A stretch of 21,750 nucleotides of DNA from a virus, in IMG/VR virus record IMGVR_UViG_3300025598_000203, positions 1 through 21,750 of that record, one strand, 5' to 3'. Position numbers and translations under genes: made by a program. Position 1 is the first letter of the stretch; the number at the start of each line of letters is the position of its first letter. Under the pieces are notes generated by a model. It was not told the origin of the DNA and ran no database searches. It saw only the letters and a program-made list of their open reading frames with translations. Of the stretch, positions 1 to 6,862 are shown piece after piece.

Positions 1-56
1 GGAAGAGGATCGGTGGGGCTTGCCATCAAAACATCCCAGTGTGTGTAGGTAGTCAT
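1..56 (-). CDS. Partial hypothetical protein, N-terminus only
   Basis: Only the first 18 codons are inside the window; the gene runs off the left edge. Its ATG (54-56) overlaps the TGA of the gene before it as ATGA, which suggests translational coupling and membership of the same leftward transcript. The visible residues begin MTTYTHWDVLMASP and are not enough to assign a family. Confidence 0.6.
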   Translation of the reverse strand, partial: MTTYTHWDVLMASPTDPL

Positions 57-220
57 GCCGCCTCCAGCATGGAATCGCGGAAGTCCTCATAGGACTCAAA
101 ATTCTCCGCAAGGTACTGCAGGCGTTTTGCGTTGCAGTCGTAGTGATCGCAGAGCCATTGGCTGTACTGCGCTTCGTATTTGCCTTGGTCGAAGGCATCA
201 TCGAACTGATCTTGTGTCAT
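53..220 (-). CDS. Small acidic hypothetical protein (55 aa)
   Basis: A 55-residue protein starting MTQDQFDDAFDQGKYEAQYS. It is acidic and rich in aromatic residues, with two cysteines (C24, C29) and no membrane segment. I do not recognise a family. The ATG is preceded by a GGAG Shine-Dalgarno at good spacing, and the gene sits about 40 bp downstream of the leftward promoter at 257-287, so it is the first gene of that transcript. It is coupled by ATGA to the partial gene at the edge. Its position behind an operator shared with the early rightward promoter suggests an early regulatory or host-takeover role; this is inference only. Confidence 0.75.
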   Translation of the reverse strand: MTQDQFDDAFDQGKYEAQYSQWLCDHYDCNAKRLQYLAENFESYEDFRDSMLEAA

Positions 221-256
221 GACTTACTCCGGTTAACCCACTCATTGTGGTGGATA

Positions 257-287
257 AACTATAACACAGAATTAAAAGTGTGAGCAA
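257..287 (-). promoter_or_regulatory. Leftward early promoter, second copy of the early promoter sequence
   Basis: On the minus strand there is a -35-like TTGCTC (282-287), an 18-bp spacer and an extended -10 TGT-TATAGT (hexamer at 258-263). The 26 bp at 257-282 are an exact inverted copy of 6128-6153, the rightward early promoter. The promoter points to the genes at 53-220 and 1-56 and starts just after the stop codon of the HNH gene. The -35 is weak; the extended -10 and the exact conservation carry the call. Confidence 0.6.
265..282. promoter_or_regulatory. Putative repressor operator, left copy
   Basis: An 18-bp imperfect dyad CACAGAATTAAAAGTGTG with symmetry CACA-N3-TTAA-N3-TGTG. It lies in the spacer of the leftward promoter, so a bound HTH protein would block RNA polymerase. 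It is identical to the dyad at 6128-6145 next to the Cro-like gene. The binding protein is inferred from this position. Confidence 0.5.
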
Positions 288-292
288 AAAAA

Positions 293-859
293 TTATCGCC
301 AGTCAGTTTGATCCCAATTGCCTTTGCCGTGGTTACATTCGCCACACAAAATTTGCAAGTTGTTGATGTCCAAAGCAAGTTCTGGAAATAACTTTCTTGG
401 CTTAATGTGATCTACATTCATGACGGCGCCATTCATGGGAGTTGCTCCGCAACAACCACACCGACGACCGTATTTGATCAAGGCTTCCATGCGTAATCTG
501 CGCCAAGCGTAAGTGCTTAAGAAATCATCAGAATCAACATTGGTTTTGGTTCGTGGCGTGCTGTCAGATTTCTTTTGCCATTTGGCAACTTTTTTGACTT
601 CAATTTCTTTTTGCCGAGATTTTTTGTTCTCGGTTATTTTTTTGGAATTCAGAGTGCAATATGCATCTATTTGCTCAAGATGCTGTTTGATGAAAGTTTT
701 TGGGTGTCCAGAGTAATTTGTGGCGCCAATTGCTTTCATGGCTTCGTTGATGGCTAAGGCATAAATGCCAATTCCAAGATCAAATTTCTGACCAGAAAGA
801 TAAACCAGCTTTCGGGCTATTTGCGCTAGTCGCTTATTGTCTCGGAATTTTTTGCTCAT
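293..859 (-). CDS. HNH endonuclease
   Basis: A 188-aa protein. The C-terminal ~70 residues form an HNH nuclease: a CGCC zinc pair near residue 135, the VDHIKPRK segment holding the catalytic His, the INNLQILC segment, then CGECNHGKGN with the second zinc pair. The N-terminal ~100 residues, containing LSGQKFDLGIGIYALAINEA and then a Lys-rich linker, match no domain I know and may be a DNA-binding or docking region. ATG at 859 is preferred over GTG at 862 because AAGGAGG sits 5 nt upstream of the ATG and too close to the GTG. The gene is A/T-rich and lies after a structured noncoding island. It may be a free-standing homing or nicking enzyme; phage HNH proteins can also assist terminase, but no terminase is near. 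Confidence 0.9.
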   Translation of the reverse strand: MSKKFRDNKRLAQIARKLVYLSGQKFDLGIGIYALAINEAMKAIGATNYSGHPKTFIKQHLEQIDAYCTLNSKKITENKKSRQKEIEVKKVAKWQKKSDSTPRTKTNVDSDDFLSTYAWRRLRMEALIKYGRRCGCCGATPMNGAVMNVDHIKPRKLFPELALDINNLQILCGECNHGKGNWDQTDWR

Positions 860-925
860 CACCCCCTCCTTATGAATTACTTACTGATACCACCCCGAAA
901 GAAAGACAAGGAAAAAAACCTCAAA

Positions 926-941
926 CCCCCCCTACCCCCCC
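926..941 (-). other. Two G7 tracts, possible G-quadruplex
   Basis: The minus strand reads G7-TA-G7, enough for a four-tract quadruplex with loops of 1, 2 and 1 nt. It lies in the leader of the HNH gene, about 65 nt upstream of its start codon. It could also be a length-variable homopolymer tract. Confidence 0.35.
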
Positions 942-997
942 ACAGCGTGAGAGGACACCCTGTCAATTCAGGAAAGCCCAAAAAAAGGAAAGAAAGA

Positions 998-1030
998 AAG
1001 CCTGAATGCTCAACTCGAAAACTCAGGCTT
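998..1030 (-). terminator. Possible intrinsic terminator upstream of the HNH gene
   Basis: In the minus direction AAGCCTGAGT (1021-1030) pairs with ATTCAGGCTT (998-1007), 10 bp including one G.U pair. It is followed by a pyrimidine run, TTTCTTTCC and then T7. The loop is 13 nt. It would catch transcripts that read through the small-RNA terminator. The T-tract is interrupted by C, so the call is tentative. Confidence 0.4.
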
Positions 1031-1059
1031 CCCCTCTCGCCTTGGTAGGGCTACAAAGC

Positions 1060-1205
1060 AAAAAACCCATTGGTGAACGAGCTTTAGGCTTGGTTGCCGC
1101 ATAAGAGCCTGCGTTATCAGAATCATGTAGCTTTGACGAAGCCCGCTCACCAATGGGTTTGCGAGTGCGTTTCCTAGAACTACACCGGGTTACCAATCCG
1201 GTGAT
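1060..1205 (-). ncRNA. Putative small structured RNA with own promoter and terminator
   Basis: No ORF covers this stretch. A start point near 1205 follows the promoter at 1212-1241. The RNA would begin with a 5' hairpin (1183-1203; CACCGG pairs with CCGGTG), then a ~22-nt linker. A long stem follows, in which 1139-1160 pairs with 1063-1084 over 22 contiguous positions with two G.U pairs, and it ends in T6 (1060-1065). On the plus strand those two positions are A-C mismatches, so the fold belongs to a leftward RNA. The 54-nt apical region can form a smaller AGGCT/AGCCT hairpin. Total length is about 145 nt. No Rfam family is recognised and function is unknown. A cis-acting leader or terminator of the primase transcript is the main alternative. 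Confidence 0.55.
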
Positions 1206-1211
1206 GGAAGG

Positions 1212-1241
1212 ATTGTATCAACACGTCTCAAGATATGTCAA
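1212..1241 (-). promoter_or_regulatory. Near-consensus sigma70 promoter for the small RNA
   Basis: On the minus strand there is a perfect -35 TTGACA (1236-1241), an 18-bp spacer and a -10 TACAAT (1212-1217, 5 of 6 to consensus). An A at 1205 lies 7 nt past the -10. No start codon with a Shine-Dalgarno follows at once; a strong hairpin does, which fits a noncoding transcript. GTGTTG repeats overlap the -35 and abut the -10. Confidence 0.6.
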
Positions 1242-1254
1242 CACATACCAACAC
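1219..1254. repeat. Three phased CAACAC direct repeats
   Basis: CAACAC occurs at 1219-1224, 1239-1244 and 1249-1254, offset by 20 and 10 bp, so all three face the same side of the helix. A fourth, inverted copy (GTGTTG) is at 1363-1368. They lie on and just upstream of the promoter at 1212-1241. They may be operator or activator sites, or iteron-like sites beside the primase gene. Confidence 0.4.
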
Positions 1255-1369
1255 GGCTGGGGACTGGCTATCTAACCCGTCTCATTCGCAGTTGCCTAGG
1301 ACTGACGACTCTCTTTTGGCGGGTCTACCAAGTCTTGCGGACTCAGGCTCCAGTCCCCATGCGTGTTGG
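1248..1369. other. Long inverted repeat, structured noncoding segment
   Basis: The arms 1248-1267 and 1350-1369 are 20 bp each with only two adjacent mismatches, and enclose 82 nt. The arms share CCAACACG and TGGGGACTGG. The interior has further small complementarities, for example ACCCG with CGGGT, so a branched fold is likely. It is in the 3' region of the TOPRIM gene and upstream of the small-RNA promoter. It resembles no tRNA or riboswitch I know. Strand is undecided because the mismatches favour neither. Confidence 0.45.
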
Positions 1370-1370
1370 C

Positions 1371-1393
1371 GCTGATGTTTACAGTCCATCAGC
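1371..1393. other. Hairpin after the TOPRIM gene
   Basis: GCTGATG (1371-1377) and CATCAGC (1387-1393) form a perfect 7-bp stem with a 9-nt loop, 16 bp past the TOPRIM stop codon. There is no T-tract on either side, so it is more likely an mRNA 3' stabiliser than a terminator. Confidence 0.35.
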
Positions 1394-1408
1394 ACGACTT
1401 TTCGAAGG

Positions 1409-2278
1409 TCACAAATATACCATCTCTCGCTTCCTGAGTTCCATTATTTTCGCAACAACAGCCCACAGACTCTCTTTGAGGTGAAGGTCATTGGCATCAT
1501 ATCCAACCGTATCTGCCATCGTCCAGGGTAGTCCAGTCTTGATCGCTGAGTTCTCACCGGTTTTGCTCTCATCATTGTCCACAAAGACAAAACGGCGCCC
1601 TTTTATTTGATCCGCCACCTGAATGAGGTTGCTGGCGCTAAAGCACACCACCACCGCGGCAGGGATTCCCACGCTCCTTAAGGCGTGCCTCACGGACAGC
1701 CCAGTAGCAAAACCCTCCACGAGCCACACCTCCTGAGAATCACGATCGCCCAAAAACAAGACAGCATTCTTGGCCCTCATGCCGTGCAGCATCTTCTTCT
1801 CGTACTTGCGCTCCTCCATGTCCCAGCGGATCGACTGGTAGCCCTGCAACTTGTTGGTGGTCACGTTGCGCATGGGGATCAGCAACTTGTCGTCCAGCAC
1901 CAGCCCACGGGTCTCCTTGAAGCCCTTGATCTCAAGGTAGCCATGGTGATCCATCTTGGCCGACCGCAGGACAATGTCAGCCTGCAAAGCCGCCTGATCG
2001 TACTTGCGCTCCTGATCCGTGGCCGCAGAGGCCCGTTTTGAGGCCCACGCACGCTTTTCTTCGTCAGTCCAAGGCTTGGCATGCGGGTCTTCATACCAAA
2101 CGACTCTAGCCTCTCCTGACCAATCCATGACCCATCCGCGCTGACCATCCCAGAAGTACGCGCCATTGTCTGACTTGGGCTTGCTGACCGTACCGGTGCG
2201 CTTGATGCGCTCAGATGGGTACAGCTTGTTGTAGTCAATCTCCACCCCATGGGCTCGTGCAAAATCAATGAAACTCAT
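1409..2278 (-). CDS. TOPRIM-domain primase-type protein
   Basis: A 289-aa protein starting MSFIDFARAHGVEIDYNKLY. The C-terminal half is a TOPRIM fold: a LLIPMRN strand, the glutamate motif VWLVEGFATGLSVRHAL near residue 190, then FVFVDNDES with the Asp-x-Asp metal pair near residue 235. The N-terminal ~100 residues resemble the region before TOPRIM in phage and plasmid primases, but the cysteine zinc finger and any C-terminal helicase motor are absent. It probably makes or helps make replication primers together with the helicase of the same operon. ATG at 2278 is chosen over the longer frame because it overlaps the upstream TGA as ATGA; the Shine-Dalgarno itself is weak, consistent with coupled translation. 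A plasmid-type TOPRIM nuclease role cannot be excluded. Confidence 0.85.
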   Translation of the reverse strand: MSFIDFARAHGVEIDYNKLYPSERIKRTGTVSKPKSDNGAYFWDGQRGWVMDWSGEARVVWYEDPHAKPWTDEEKRAWASKRASAATDQERKYDQAALQADIVLRSAKMDHHGYLEIKGFKETRGLVLDDKLLIPMRNVTTNKLQGYQSIRWDMEERKYEKKMLHGMRAKNAVLFLGDRDSQEVWLVEGFATGLSVRHALRSVGIPAAVVVCFSASNLIQVADQIKGRRFVFVDNDESKTGENSAIKTGLPWTMADTVGYDANDLHLKESLWAVVAKIMELRKREMVYL

Positions 2279-2472
2279 GATTGACTTACAGGGTAAAAGG
2301 TCACAACACCACTGGGCCAATGAATAGTGACACTGCAACCCAACTTTTTGGATGTGCTTGAAATCCAGTGCTTGATTGCAGGCTCATACATCAATTTTTC
2401 AAGCAAACGCAAACTGATAGTCGCATCTTCGCCGCGATTCACCTTATCGGCAATCCATGCTTCGATATTCAT
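2275..2472 (-). CDS. Small hypothetical protein (65 aa)
   Basis: A 65-residue protein beginning MNIEAWIADKVNRGEDATIS, soluble and of mixed charge. The middle contains LLEKLMYEPAIKHWISSTSK and the end is a beta-prone VTIHWPSGVVTFYPV segment. I do not recognise it. A purine-rich GGAAGGG sequence precedes the ATG, and both ends overlap neighbours by ATGA, so it is translated with the paralogous genes upstream and the TOPRIM gene downstream. Confidence 0.75.
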   Translation of the reverse strand: MNIEAWIADKVNRGEDATISLRLLEKLMYEPAIKHWISSTSKKLGCSVTIHWPSGVVTFYPVSQS

Positions 2473-2678
2473 AGATCACCCTTCCTTATGGCCCTCAAGA
2501 CTCGATCTGCGGTATCTTTCAAAGTGCCAAGAAGTGCAACACTTGCTCTGATCGAGCATGCATCACGCTCATGCTGTGCTACCAGTTTGGCAAAGCGTTT
2601 AAGTGCTTTTGGATGAGTTGCTAAACAACTTGGTAAATTTGCCTCTCTAGCCATCTCAATAATTTGTTCGTCAGTCAT
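2469..2678 (-). CDS. Small protein, paralogue family member 1 (69 aa)
   Basis: The layout is shared with the next two genes upstream: an N-terminal MTDEQIIEMAREANL helix, a central RFAKLVAQHERDACSI helix and a C-terminal LRAIRKG segment. Such short proteins with an AKEREACAK-like core recur in phage early regions, but I know of no assigned function. This copy is the shortest and its core has drifted, with HERDAC in place of KEREAC. The Shine-Dalgarno GAGGTG is 5 nt from the ATG, and ATGA overlaps occur at both ends. Confidence 0.8.
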   Translation of the reverse strand: MTDEQIIEMAREANLPSCLATHPKALKRFAKLVAQHERDACSIRASVALLGTLKDTADRVLRAIRKGDL

Positions 2679-2929
2679 GCTTCACCTCTTGCACGGATGG
2701 CATCGGCTAACTGAGAAGCGGCCATTTCTTTACCAAGAAGGTAATCTTGATGTGCGCCTCGTACTTGCGCTGGCACTTCAAAATAATCACACACTTTTGC
2801 ACACGCCTCACGCTCTTTTGCTGCTACCAGCTCTGTATAACGCTCTAGCCACAGCAAGTCTTTCTCCTGAGCAATTTCAATTAACGCACCAGCTTTTCGT
2901 CCTATCTGTAAGATTTCTTCTCGTGTCAT
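2675..2929 (-). CDS. Small protein, paralogue family member 2 (84 aa)
   Basis: Starts MTREEILQIGRKAGALIEIA and carries the family core LVAAKEREACAKVCDYFE at about residues 34-51, then a variable stretch and the terminal LADAIRARGEA. It is predicted to be mostly helical and charged, without a membrane segment. AAGGGG precedes the ATG, and both ends overlap neighbours by ATGA. The core LVAAKEREACAK is identical to that of the gene directly upstream, pointing to tandem duplication. Function unknown. Confidence 0.82.
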   Translation of the reverse strand: MTREEILQIGRKAGALIEIAQEKDLLWLERYTELVAAKEREACAKVCDYFEVPAQVRGAHQDYLLGKEMAASQLADAIRARGEA

Positions 2930-3306
2930 GCTTGTCCCCTTGCTCGTATGATTTCAGCGGGTTCGTGAGGTTCGTAATAACCTATGCCGTTATCGCGGTC
3001 TTCAAACAACTTTGCACACGCCTCACGCTCTTTAGCTGCTACCAGTTTGGCAAATGCAACAATTTTAGCCTTGCATGCTTTACGTTCTTCTTCAGCACCA
3101 AGCTGTTTCAATCTGTCGCAAAGGGCGTAGAAGCCAACAACGTTGAAGTCGCCGTCATGTCCAGCCACTTTGCAAACTCGCAAGATGTCCATTTGGATTT
3201 CGCGTTCTGTCATTTGCGTGCTCCCATGCCGCGCTTGTACGCGATGTTCAGTTGCCACATGAAGTCCAGCTCGTTTAGCCATCTCAATGATTTCTTCATC
3301 AGTCAT
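2926..3306 (-). CDS. Small protein, paralogue family member 3 (126 aa)
   Basis: The longest member. It has the family N-terminus MTDEEIIEMAKRAGLHVATE, an extra ~60-residue insert containing CKVAGHDGDFNVVGFYALCD, then FAKLVAAKEREACAKLFED at about residues 85-103 and the terminal EIIRARGQA. It looks like a family member whose middle has been expanded, perhaps by fusion of two copies, since a second MTEREIQMDILRVCKVAG segment resembles another N-terminal helix. GGGGTGAAGC precedes the ATG. It overlaps both neighbours by ATGA. Function unknown. Confidence 0.8.
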   Translation of the reverse strand: MTDEEIIEMAKRAGLHVATEHRVQARHGSTQMTEREIQMDILRVCKVAGHDGDFNVVGFYALCDRLKQLGAEEERKACKAKIVAFAKLVAAKEREACAKLFEDRDNGIGYYEPHEPAEIIRARGQA

Positions 3307-3530
3307 GCTTCACCCCACATTTGCTTGTGGTTTTCTTTGATCATGTCAGGCACGCTGTCTGGCAATTTAGGACGTGCAATATCAAGAAACCATTTCTGAA
3401 AAACATCGGAGGGTTGCAATGCCAACAACAAACCGTTTTTGTCTCTCATGGTTGCCAAGGCAATAATCAATTTTTCAAGGTCGTCGTGATTGACACCGTC
3501 GGCCTTTGCGTAAAAAGTTGGATAAGTCAT
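3303..3530 (-). CDS. Small hypothetical protein (75 aa)
   Basis: Starts MTYPTFYAKADGVNHDDLEK. ATG at 3530 is preferred to a longer frame reaching 3632, because AGGAG lies at good spacing and the ATG forms an ATGA overlap with the helicase stop codon; the longer form would overlap the helicase gene by about 100 bp. It is a soluble, helical protein with no motif I recognise. It is sandwiched between the helicase and the paralogue family in the coupled early operon, so a replication-accessory role is possible but unsupported. Confidence 0.72.
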   Translation of the reverse strand: MTYPTFYAKADGVNHDDLEKLIIALATMRDKNGLLLALQPSDVFQKWFLDIARPKLPDSVPDMIKENHKQMWGEA

Positions 3531-5053
3531 TTCCGTGCTCCTAAACTGCGTTGGTATTGGATATTCATTTGTTGGATTTTGTTGTAGACGTTCTTTGTGA
3601 TCTCCACAGGGGGAGCTTTTGAGAACTGCCACTGCGTCTCTTGGCCGGTGATTTGTTTAAACAGATGACAAGCACGGGCTGATTGCTTTTCAGGCTTACT
3701 GTGGTGACGGGCGTACTCACAGACCTGATGCCATAAATGTTCAGCGTTGTCTGCCAGCTTTTTCTTTTTCGCCCCCTCACCGATGAAGATTTCCTGCATG
3801 TGACCGGGCAGCGCCTCAGCACGTGCTGGGGAAATCTTTTCGTGACCACAAGCCATACAACGCTTGTGAAACGGTTTGTACCCACACTTCGGGCAACCAT
3901 TGGGCTGCATGTCATCATCACCACGAATTTTCTTGTCCAGCTTGTCACCCGAGTCCAGTGAGTTAAGTCCGTTGAAAAATATTTCAGTGAAGTCTTCTGC
4001 AAAACGAATGATGTTGCCGCTGAAGTCCAGCAGATAGGAGTCTTTTTTCCCAGTGTCTGGCGATGAACGCAGTCCACGCCCCCACATTTGAATCGCCGTA
4101 CTTAAAGATTTACGCAGGGGACGGGCATCACAAATACATCCTACGTCAGGCACGTCAAAACCCTTTGCAAGGGCCTCAACGCTGATCAAGACCTTCAGGT
4201 GCCCACTGGGCTTTCTGTACTCGTCCAAGAGGTTCTGACGCTCTTTGGCGGTGGTCTCCGACGTGAACACAGCGGCCATGATGCCCTGGTTGATGAACTG
4301 CTTTGCAATTTCCTCACAATGCTTGATGGTGGCTCCAAAAACAATAGTCTTGCGGTTGTCGCCAAACTTGAGCCATTCATTGACCACGTCACCAATGATC
4401 TCAAGGCCACGCTCTTCAGCCGCCTTGTCAGTCCACTCATCGCCCGCGGTAGCCGCACCCTTCATATCGGGCTTTGTGCAAGAAAATATCCGCATTGGCA
4501 CCAGAACCCCTGACTGAGTCAGATCGTGCATGGTGGTGGCGTTAATGAGGTTTGTGAATATCTTTCCAAGCCCCACGCTGAACGGGGTTGCAGACAGACC
4601 GATCACAGCCGCCCCACTGCTCATGGCATAGTCAGTCCAGACCTTCATCTGGGCGTGGCACTCATCGACCACCAAAACGTCCAAGGCTGGCCAAAAACCT
4701 CGCTTGGCAATTGTTTGAGCCGATGCGATCTGCAACAACTCGTCTGGTCTGCGGCGCTGATGATTAGCCTGAATGACGCCATGGTCGTTTAAGCCGTAGC
4801 CGTCTGCGGCATCCGAGGTCTGGTTGATCAGTGTGGTGCGATCGCATAGAAAGACTGCACGCTTGCCCTTTTGCATTGCCTCACGGCAGATACGCAAGCC
4901 AAGGTAAGTCTTTCCCGCCCCCGTAGGAGCCATGATGATTTGGTTTTTATGCCCCTCGCGGAAACCTTGGCGTAGGGATTGATGGGCAGAGAGTTGGAAT
5001 GGGCGGGGTGTAGGAAATCCATCATCACGCTCAATTGGCGCTAGGTTGTTCAT
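3527..5053 (-). CDS. SF2 DEAD/DEAH-type helicase
   Basis: 508 aa with the superfamily 2 motifs in order: Walker A APTGAGKT at residues 42-49, Walker B DECH at 130-133, motif III SATP at 154-157, a helicase C lobe with KVLISVEALAKGFDVPDV near 287-304, and motif VI QMWGRGLRS at 322-330. After the motor a four-cysteine zinc knuckle (CPKC at 387-390, CMAC at 399-402) and a ~100-residue tail may bind DNA or a partner. It should use ATP to open or remodel DNA during phage replication or recombination, like UvsW/RecG-type phage helicases. The ATG is coupled by ATGA to the ParB-like gene. All catalytic residues are present, so it should be active. Confidence 0.93.
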   Translation of the reverse strand: MNNLAPIERDDGFPTPRPFQLSAHQSLRQGFREGHKNQIIMAPTGAGKTYLGLRICREAMQKGKRAVFLCDRTTLINQTSDAADGYGLNDHGVIQANHQRRRPDELLQIASAQTIAKRGFWPALDVLVVDECHAQMKVWTDYAMSSGAAVIGLSATPFSVGLGKIFTNLINATTMHDLTQSGVLVPMRIFSCTKPDMKGAATAGDEWTDKAAEERGLEIIGDVVNEWLKFGDNRKTIVFGATIKHCEEIAKQFINQGIMAAVFTSETTAKERQNLLDEYRKPSGHLKVLISVEALAKGFDVPDVGCICDARPLRKSLSTAIQMWGRGLRSSPDTGKKDSYLLDFSGNIIRFAEDFTEIFFNGLNSLDSGDKLDKKIRGDDDMQPNGCPKCGYKPFHKRCMACGHEKISPARAEALPGHMQEIFIGEGAKKKKLADNAEHLWHQVCEYARHHSKPEKQSARACHLFKQITGQETQWQFSKAPPVEITKNVYNKIQQMNIQYQRSLGARK

Positions 5054-5871
5054 TTTTTGGCTTTCCGAATTTTGTCGAGTTGTGCTTGAGCACGCTTGGC
5101 ATCTTTGATGGCTTCGTTCTTTTCCGTCATCAGGGAACTAAGGCGTGTTTCCAGTTGCGCAACACGCAAGTTCAAACGCTTGATCTCTTCGTGCGCAGTA
5201 GCCAGGGCATCATCAGACTCCAAGAGCTTGTACATAGCCTCTTGATCCGCTTGCATGGCTAATTCGTTAGCCTTCAACTCGTCTTCATCGGGTGTGGCAC
5301 CAGAATCTAAGTTAGGACTTTCCCTACCTGTTGTATTTTCACTACTAATCTGATTAGTAATCTTTTGGTTCTCAATTTCAGATTTGAGTTCCTCAGCCTT
5401 CTTGATGATGCTCTTTTCTTTGTCTTGTTTTTGCTTTTGCTTCTTAGACGGGTCTTTGACGCCGGCAACAAAAGGTTGGGACACCCGGCAGATTTTGGCG
5501 ATCTCGTACAGAGTTGCATCTTTGAGGTCTGGGTGCGCCAGGGCCATCTGCACGGCGTTGCGCTTGTCCTCGATGGTGCGTGGCTTGCCATGCTTACCGT
5601 TGACGCCAAACGAAATGATCTGAGCCTCAGATTGTGTGCCGGGCTTGTAGTTCACGTCGGCCTGCTTCATGCCCATCAGCTTGTAGGCGTGGTAGCGGTG
5701 GAAGCCATCAACCAGCCAGTGCGTTGCGCCATCAAAGACCGTGTCCATTGGCGGGAACTCGTCCCCTTCTTTCATGCACTCGATGTACTGGTACACCAAG
5801 GCTTGATCGATCACTGTGCGGCTTTGGGTGCCGCCGTCGATCCGGATGTCGTTCAAATTCACTTTTTTCAT
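5050..5871 (-). CDS. ParB/Srx-fold DNA-binding protein
   Basis: 273 aa starting MKKVNLNDIRIDGGTQSRTV. An N-terminal ParB-like nuclease/CTPase fold is seen in HWLVDGFHRYHAYKLMG (about residues 49-65, the GxHR-type box). A helix-turn-helix follows in LYEIAKICRVSQPFVAGV (about 125-142), then a Lys/Gln-rich linker and a C-terminal coiled coil of roughly 80 residues. Free-standing phage ParB-like proteins act as regulators, nickases or segregation factors; which applies here cannot be told. ATG at 5871 has GGAG 5 nt upstream and is preferred to the upstream TTG at 5910, which would overlap the repressor gene. It is coupled by ATGA to the helicase. Confidence 0.85.
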   Translation of the reverse strand: MKKVNLNDIRIDGGTQSRTVIDQALVYQYIECMKEGDEFPPMDTVFDGATHWLVDGFHRYHAYKLMGMKQADVNYKPGTQSEAQIISFGVNGKHGKPRTIEDKRNAVQMALAHPDLKDATLYEIAKICRVSQPFVAGVKDPSKKQKQKQDKEKSIIKKAEELKSEIENQKITNQISSENTTGRESPNLDSGATPDEDELKANELAMQADQEAMYKLLESDDALATAHEEIKRLNLRVAQLETRLSSLMTEKNEAIKDAKRAQAQLDKIRKAKK

Positions 5872-5888
5872 TTCATCTCCAGTTAAAT

Positions 5889-5902
5889 ACACAACATTGT
5901 GT
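5889..5902. promoter_or_regulatory. Short palindrome between repressor and ParB-like genes
   Basis: ACACAA-CA-TTGTGT is a perfect 6-bp inverted repeat with a 2-nt centre, lying between the repressor stop and the ParB-like start. It shares the CACA/TGTG half-site edges of the main operator but with a shorter spacing, so it may be a different binding site or an mRNA hairpin. Confidence 0.3.
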
Positions 5903-6103
5903 TCAGTCAAAAAGGTCGGGGCGCAGTTCTTTTGCAGTCACTAATTTGTTTGTTTCCCTCTCAATTCGTTTAGCAAGCTCGGCTGATGGACGCCGCTTTT
6001 TTGAGATCAAAAGCGATACCCAAGTCGGTGTGATGCCAAAGTGTTTAGCGAAATCCATCTTCGCTCCGTAAGGCTCGTCAGCAAAATATTCTTTCAGATT
6101 CAT
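5903..6103 (-). CDS. Cro/YdaS-like helix-turn-helix repressor
   Basis: A 66-aa protein starting MNLKEYFADEPYGAKMDFAK. The helix-turn-helix spans roughly residues 15-40, with the recognition helix in PTWVSLLISKKRRPS, followed by AELAKRIERETNKLVTAKEL and the ending RPDLF that is typical of YdaS/Cro-type phage repressors. ATG at 6103 has GAGGA 6 nt upstream and is preferred to TTG at 6121, which overlaps the -10 of its own promoter. It is the first gene of the leftward operon and lies beside the divergent promoters with the 18-bp dyad, which suits a repressor controlling its own and the rightward promoter. No larger CI-type repressor is visible, so this does not prove a lysogenic life cycle. Confidence 0.85.
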   Translation of the reverse strand: MNLKEYFADEPYGAKMDFAKHFGITPTWVSLLISKKRRPSAELAKRIERETNKLVTAKELRPDLFD

Positions 6104-6120
6104 GGTTTGTCCTCGATTCA

Positions 6121-6153
6121 ATCATAGCACACTTTTAATTCTGTGTTATAGTT
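6121..6153. promoter_or_regulatory. Overlapping divergent early promoters with central operator
   Basis: Leftward promoter: -35 ATAACA (6144-6149), 17-bp spacer and extended -10 TGC-TATGAT (hexamer 6121-6126). Rightward promoter: extended -10 TGT-TATAGT (hexamer 6147-6152) with no clear -35. The 18-bp dyad CACACTTTTAATTCTGTG (6128-6145) fills the space between the two -10 elements, so one bound protein would affect both. The 26 bp at 6128-6153 recur exactly at 257-282 in the opposite direction. The leftward -10 is not conserved in that copy. Confidence 0.65.
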
Positions 6154-6208
6154 CTATCACGGTCGGGTTGACCGGATGTGTCCAATTGGACGGTTACGGA
6201 GTATAACT

Positions 6209-6862
6209 ATGAGTTTTATTGTTGAAGACAACGGCGGCAATTTTGAGCGCTGTCCACAAGGGATGCACCTTGCACGGTGCTACCGCATCATTGACCTTGG
6301 GACGCAAAAGTCCGAGTACATGGGTCAAGTCAAGTACCTTCACAAGCTGATGGTGGGCTGGGAAATCCACGGCATGCACGACGATGGAACCCCCATCAAG
6401 ATGAAGGATGGGCGACCATTTGCCATCTTCAAGAACTACACACTGTCCTGGTCTGAAAAAGCCAACCTGCGACTTGACCTTCAGTCTTGGCGTGGTCGTG
6501 CATTCACCCAAGAGGAGATGCGCCGCTTTGACCTAAAGAACGTTTTGGGAGCGTGGTGCATGTTGAATGTGATCGAGCGCTCAGGACAGAACGGGAACAC
6601 CTACTCCAACGTGGATGGCGTCACCCCAGTGCCTGCGATGATCAAACAAAACGGCTTACCCAATGCCGTGAACAAGAATGAAATCTTCAACCTGACTGAT
6701 CCCGACATGGCGATGTTTGAGGGCTTCAGCGACAACCTGAAGAAGAAGATCATGGCATCCCCTGAGTGGGAGAAGCTCCAAGGCAAGACACCTGCGCCAG
6801 CACCTCAGGCCGCGCCAACAAAGCCTGCGTTTGACGACATGGATGATGATATACCATTCTAG
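6209..6862 (+). CDS. Putative single-stranded DNA-binding protein
   Basis: 217 aa starting MSFIVEDNGGNFERCPQGMH. The N-terminal part (MHLARCYRIIDLGTQKSE, then VKYLHKLMVGWEIHG) is a beta-strand pattern often seen in phage OB-fold-like proteins placed beside recombination exonucleases. A Pro/Ala linker leads to the acidic C-terminus FDDMDDDIPF, which matches the partner-binding tip of bacterial SSB. It likely coats ssDNA and recruits SSB-interacting enzymes. ATG at 6209 has GGAG 9 nt upstream; the longer frame from 6176 would begin close to the likely transcription start. It is the first gene of the rightward operon. The assignment rests on tail and context more than on a recognised core motif. 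Confidence 0.7.
   Translation: MSFIVEDNGGNFERCPQGMHLARCYRIIDLGTQKSEYMGQVKYLHKLMVGWEIHGMHDDGTPIKMKDGRPFAIFKNYTLSWSEKANLRLDLQSWRGRAFTQEEMRRFDLKNVLGAWCMLNVIERSGQNGNTYSNVDGVTPVPAMIKQNGLPNAVNKNEIFNLTDPDMAMFEGFSDNLKKKIMASPEWEKLQGKTPAPAPQAAPTKPAFDDMDDDIPF

Follow-up and report, generated by a model that had tools for sequence, protein, structure and literature searches.

Gene context and layout of the locus

The window, by which we mean the whole stretch of DNA analysed here, is a 21.75-kb virus record. On its minus strand lies a small-RNA unit, which we call RNA1; upstream of it are a Toprim/primase-like gene (1409–2278), a DEAD/ResIII helicase gene, a ParB-like gene and the gene of a YdaS-like regulator, and downstream is an HNH gene (293–862). 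Beside the ParB-like gene, positions 5903–6121 (minus strand) encode a small protein that matches YdaS_toxin (PF15943) and a PHROG transcriptional repressor; judged by these matches, the product is probably a phage regulator.

A preliminary description of RNA1 had placed a minus-strand promoter, with perfect TTGACA and TACAAT hexamers and an 18-bp spacer, straight before a hairpin, which is followed by a 22-bp stem that closes a 54-nt apical region and ends in T6. The coordinates bear out every one of these details (Table 1). The −10 hexamer is preceded by TG, and this promoter is the sole 11/12 match detected in positions 1–6300 of the window.

Table 1. Features of RNA1 and its surroundings; positions refer to the window unless a contig is named
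Feature	Position	Strand	Description and basis
Sigma-70 promoter	1212–1241	minus	−35 TTGACA 1241–1236, 18-nt spacer, −10 TACAAT 1217–1212
RNA1, predicted transcript of ~146 nt	1060–1205	minus	+1 near A1205, end in U-run; fold z, covariance model
P1, 5′ hairpin CACCGG/CCGGTG	1183–1203	minus	1203–1198 pairs with 1188–1183
P1 loop UUGGU, half of kissing contact PK1	1192–1196	minus	partner ACCAA 1094–1090
Linker half of PK2, CUAGGA	1172–1177	minus	6-bp hypervariable helix in nearly all relatives; broken in the window
P2, 5′ arm of 22-bp stem	1139–1160	minus	inverted repeat and fold
P2, 3′ arm 1084–1063 and T6 1065–1060, intrinsic-terminator-like	1060–1084	minus	inverted repeat
P3 hairpin	1099–1131	minus	loop AUAACG 1117–1112, expected other half of PK2; covariation in relatives
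P4 hairpin GGC-AACCAA-GCC	1087–1098	minus	loop is the other half of PK1; alignment of relatives
H2, second long hairpin	1248–1369	minus	arms CCAACACG..GGGGACTGG / CCAGTCCCC..CGTGTTGG; inverted repeat I2; just upstream of the RNA1 promoter
Second hairpin with pyrimidine-rich tail, at the usual place of RNA2	985–1043	minus	inverted repeat I3
Betaproteobacteria-1 in phages	L054 6005–6122; L002 6050–6167; L025 6664–6780		RF02932, 120 positions
tRNA genes near RNA1	L006 6133–6207; L020 6616–6770; L025 6221–6480; L089 3478–3549

The minus strand of 1060–1205 folds with −56 kcal/mol (z = −5.1), a value reached by none of 200 shuffles. The arms of the long stem P2 (1160–1139 and 1084–1063) are 22 nt each, 91% complementary and 54 nt apart. 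Leftward transcription, claimed earlier from the letters of the stem, agrees with a covariance model of the relatives, R1, which was built without the window and scores 153.7 bits on the minus strand versus 24.8 bits on the plus strand; a plus-strand RNA is rejected on these scores. Two tertiary contacts (PK1 and PK2) and a further RNA that usually lies downstream (RNA2) were absent from the preliminary description.

Relatives of RNA1 and covariation of its helices

The primase of the window led to 54 IMG/VR contigs, most of which carry, immediately downstream of the primase gene, a promoter followed by one small hairpin and one long hairpin that has a T-run. The type found in the window, type B, is present in 82 IMG/VR contigs that contain the exact 20-nt pattern GCGGCAACCAAGCCTAAAGC and, with the primase-derived loci included, comprises 64 distinct sequences. 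A sister type with the same layout, type A, was retrieved with TTAAGYCWRRYYCCGACCCC from 89 contigs, about 87 of them genuine; L163 and L195 were rejected as accidental matches of the pattern in other sequence. Since exact patterns served as search seeds, the invariance of the GCGGCAACCAAGCCTAAAGC and TTAAGYCWRRYYCCGACCCC stretches is partly a matter of ascertainment. The pairing test, applied also to further hairpin types at the locus of the primase, reached significance in L027 and L034 alone, and for the remaining ones the RNA1 layout is therefore not claimed.

RNAalifold predicts 38 pairs from the 64 type-B sequences, 22 of them with changes on both sides. In 45 relatives, the window being left out, 94.8% of the cells of the named structure, including the two tertiary contacts, are paired, and 30 of its 52 pairs have both-sided changes. 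Such changes occupy 318 cells versus 104 in shuffles, none of 500 shuffles reaching the observed value, and slid versions of the structure are only 27–50% paired in the same relatives. The model R1 matches the window along its whole length (positions 1–148 of 148, at 1207–1060 on the minus strand) with 153.7 bits and an E-value of 7.5e-33. Homologues without covariation had been named earlier as grounds for abandoning the unit; covariation was found. These patterns of change show that RNA1 is a structured RNA under selection, of a family found repeatedly in many uncultured phages.

The helices differ in how they vary. All six pairs of P1 covary in the relatives, where 100% of its cells are paired; covariation is seen in 10 of the 22 pairs of P2 and in five of the seven pairs of P3. 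The P4 hairpin is fixed by the search pattern, so that its invariance is partly ascertainment. In PK1, the kissing contact between the loops of P1 and P4, four of the five pairs are invariant in type B, one side again being fixed by the search pattern. The equivalent contact in type A takes the forms GTGGAAG/CTTCCAC, GTGAGAG/CTCTCAC, GTAGAAG/CTTCTAC and TTGGAAC/GTTCCAA, with covariation above all 1000 shuffles. A pairing of the type-A P1 loop with sequence past the U-run, noticed by eye in a few members, is not general and was rejected. PK2 joins the linker to the P3 loop by a 6-bp helix in which all six pairs covary through many different sequences in type B; it pairs in nearly all distinct members other than the window, L069 having a one-base bulge. 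The sequence of PK2 is nearly free to change provided that both sides match.

The promoter keeps its place as well. Its best match ends 4–5 nt ahead of P1 in 57 of the 64 distinct type-B members, and the score is at least 11/12 in 37 of the 64, versus 2 of 1280 shuffles. This conserved position likely fixes the 5′ end of RNA1 and suggests that the host sigma-70 polymerase could make it.

Conservation of a protein does not account for the unit. A 57-aa ORF with a TTG start (1023–1196, minus strand) does overlap RNA1, and the earlier statement that no ORF is present is literally wrong; it stands in substance, because the frame is not conserved in relatives. These keep the helices, not the frame, differ in linker and stem lengths, and show one cluster of accidental frames in only 17 type-B contexts. 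A hidden ORF as the cause of conservation is rejected accordingly.

Distribution and genomic contexts

RNA1 is a family not listed in Rfam, as the preliminary description had supposed when it recognised no Rfam class. No family of Rfam 15 reaches its curated threshold in the window; with E-values up to 5, positions 860–1450 give two microRNA models only, far below threshold and outside 1060–1205, and the stretches tested in relatives contain no Rfam match to RNA1.

The unit occurs once in every one of the 23 whole phage records, out of 28, that have a type-B match, the remaining five having been chosen from type-A or other contigs. It stands after primase, terminase, VRR-NUC or RuvC-like genes, or opposite metallophosphoesterase genes, these family names being readings of protein clusters, only some of which were searched in a library. 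Among 84,980 bacterial and archaeal species (257 Gb), the exact pattern has 31 matches versus about 30 expected by chance, and type B was found neither in plasmids nor in INPHARED phages; for type A, INPHARED yields a single match, MW202545.1. Searching 399 Burkholderiales genomes with the covariance model likewise gave nothing, which is weak evidence given the strict filters of this search. The chance-level bacterial matches and the lack of type B in plasmids lead us to reject a prophage or bacterial RNA.

A second RNA downstream of RNA1

A longer noncoding region, RNA2, begins within about 25 nt downstream of RNA1 in about 154 of 163 copies (~94%). The unit had earlier been called self-contained, which holds for the window but fails for these relatives. 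RNA2, about 300–400 nt long, comprises several classes and shows conservation from phage to phage. One of the classes is the Rfam family Betaproteobacteria-1 (RF02932), listed by Rfam as an sRNA gene, which L002, L025 and L054 carry on the strand of RNA1 (Table 1). The possibility that RF02932 is RNA1 itself was rejected, since it corresponds to the adjacent RNA2; RNA1 has no match to it in the stretches tested, even at E-values up to 5. This family was reportedly described in a 2017 paper; the literature searched contained no paper on it or on the RNA1 family. The conserved noncoding stretch at the Betaproteobacteria-1 loci extends to about 250–300 nt, where a terminator-like hairpin closes it. 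Being longer than the 120 positions of RF02932, it suggests that the Rfam model may be truncated.

A further class, which starts with GGTCTATCGGG (L067, L165, L190 and L060), has no Rfam match; 25 of its 55 predicted pairs have compensatory changes in eight sequences, and it is probably a second undescribed RNA family. Two more classes of conserved noncoding RNA2, GACTTTTGGTGATCACG.. and AGTCTATCGGG.., lie downstream of RNA1 in L187, L201 and L203, and in L082, L089 and L092, respectively.

RNA1 types A and B each co-occur with the three largest RNA2 classes tested, and some Burkholderiales genomes carry a Betaproteobacteria-1 upstream of which inspection revealed no structure resembling RNA1. 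This pattern indicates that RNA1 and RNA2 are separable modules. RNA2 starts 10–25 nt beyond the U-run, which leaves no room for a promoter of its own; polymerase must therefore leak past the U-run, and a cis-acting role for RNA1 is possible. In some phages, L002 and L158 among them, RNA2 has a terminator-like hairpin of its own that separates it from the next gene.

The copy in the window

The copy in the window retains P1, PK1, P2, P4, the promoter and the terminator, and has lost PK2, the distal part of P3 and RNA2. Its PK2 halves, CUAGGA and AUAACG, make it a clear exception among type-B members, and it is the only one of the 64 type-B sequences with C.U and A.C at two P3 pairs. The 5′ half of P3 resembles that of L070 and the 3′ half that of L046. 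No RNA2 is present between 1060 and the HNH gene, and 801–1062 has no relative in any fetched locus. The mixed P3, the broken PK2 and the missing RNA2 make it probable that the solitary copy in the window is recombinant or decaying. A chimera or error of short-read assembly is a less likely source of the broken P3: the sequence shared with relatives in which the switch falls is very short, shorter than the usual k-mer join needs. Functional conclusions should be drawn from the relatives rather than from this copy. The hairpin with a pyrimidine-rich tail at the usual place of RNA2 (Table 1) is a possible back-up terminator.

Possible functions of RNA1

As possible functions, the preliminary description had offered a regulatory RNA acting on host or phage mRNAs, an anti-repressor, and an RNA of replication or packaging. 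We tentatively favour, at somewhat short of even confidence, the reading that RNA1 is a structured phage RNA, probably acting in trans by binding a protein, the ribosome or a polymerase, and carried as an ‘RNA moron’ of which the window probably holds a decaying or recombinant copy. The host sigma-70 polymerase would start at A1205, with no need for a phage transcription factor. The transcript would fold into the 5′ hairpin kissing P4 and the 22-bp stem, with the linker–P3 loop contact added in intact members, and transcription would end in the U-run to give a separate RNA1 of about 146 nt, partial read-through yielding the downstream RNA2. The compact fold might then act on a host or phage protein, on the ribosome or on the polymerase, in host takeover or counter-defence, while the unit recombines between phages. 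Two observations sit uneasily with action in trans: the leaky U-run leaves room for a role in cis, and the genes downstream of RNA1 run in its direction in 121 of 131 cases, a hint of some connection with downstream transcription, although the phage lineages are not independent and such orientation counts do not decide between trans and cis.

The main rival, less probable than action in trans but the nearest to it, is a cis-acting conditional terminator or processing leader of an RNA1–RNA2 transcript, in which the pseudoknots would set the choice between stopping at the U-run and entering RNA2, or RNase III would cleave the 22-bp stem and free RNA2. The close spacing of RNA2 without promoter room, and the almost constant direction of the downstream genes, speak for it; Betaproteobacteria-1 without an apparent RNA1 in Burkholderiales, the partnership of RNA1 with unrelated RNA2 classes, and the window itself, with RNA1 and no RNA2, speak against. 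Processive antitermination, in which RNA1 would bind its own polymerase and make it ignore later terminators, is improbable. The model here is HK022 put, a structured RNA that lies directly downstream of a phage promoter but is shorter than RNA1, is present in two copies and has no terminator of its own. RNA1 likewise begins at +1 of a strong promoter, and a divergent gene lies upstream in 32 contexts versus an apparently convergent gene downstream in nine, several of the latter being doubtful ORFs; yet a terminator-like stem closes RNA1 itself, there is one copy rather than two, and RNA2 of L002 and L158 has its own terminator-like hairpin. We give slightly less credence still to a base-pairing regulatory sRNA of the Hfq/ProQ type directed at host or phage mRNAs: size, promoter and U-tail are compatible with it, but the variable linker and P3 loop pair mutually in almost every relative, leaving little free seed, and the invariant parts are structural. 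Least probable is a replication or packaging RNA. A primase or large terminase gene often adjoins the single-copy RNA1, and its complementary loops recall phi29 pRNA, a small phage RNA whose loops stay complementary while their sequence varies; the neighbouring gene varies, however, and the large terminase is of ordinary type in some contexts. Moreover, phi29 pRNA serves a single packaging motor, whereas many different phage contexts harbour RNA1, whose 3′ stem resembles a terminator.

GOLLD and ROOL, structured phage RNAs that often lie near tRNAs and have no assigned function (PMC12286853), are a standing puzzle to which RNA1 adds a small and well-defined case, with promoter, 5′ end, 3′ end and fold all predicted and backed by covariation. 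Like them, RNA1 has tRNA genes close by in some contigs (Table 1), so that the locus is a tRNA/ncRNA island in some phages. GOLLD and ROOL are, in contrast, several times longer and form cages, and their Rfam models have no match in the window or in the RNA1 loci tested. Betaproteobacteria-1 gains a context, since in phages it is one of several RNAs that can alternatively occupy the place behind RNA1. More speculatively, and with rather low confidence, RNA1 and its interchangeable RNA2 might form a modular two-RNA, RNA-only system for counter-defence or takeover; such a system would have spread by recombination across unrelated phages, and in it RNA1, small and pseudoknotted and with a hypervariable contact complementary to itself, would join an ornate RNA against a host function.

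Other features of the locus

The second long hairpin, H2, has a conserved base, CCAACACGCATGGGGAYTG / CAGTCCCCAGCCGTGTTGG, and apical parts that are unrelated and of different lengths. Its 15-nt 3′ arm is exact in 32 fetched loci, including that of the window, and occurs twice in L055, L145 and L187; the seven full copies differ in their apical parts. H2 is a recurrent intergenic hairpin. The helicase-family ORF of L198 (contig 3300032223_001056) exceeds the usual length by about 270 aa and includes an intein-like stretch, CFPGDTLVSTAQGLVEIRNV..
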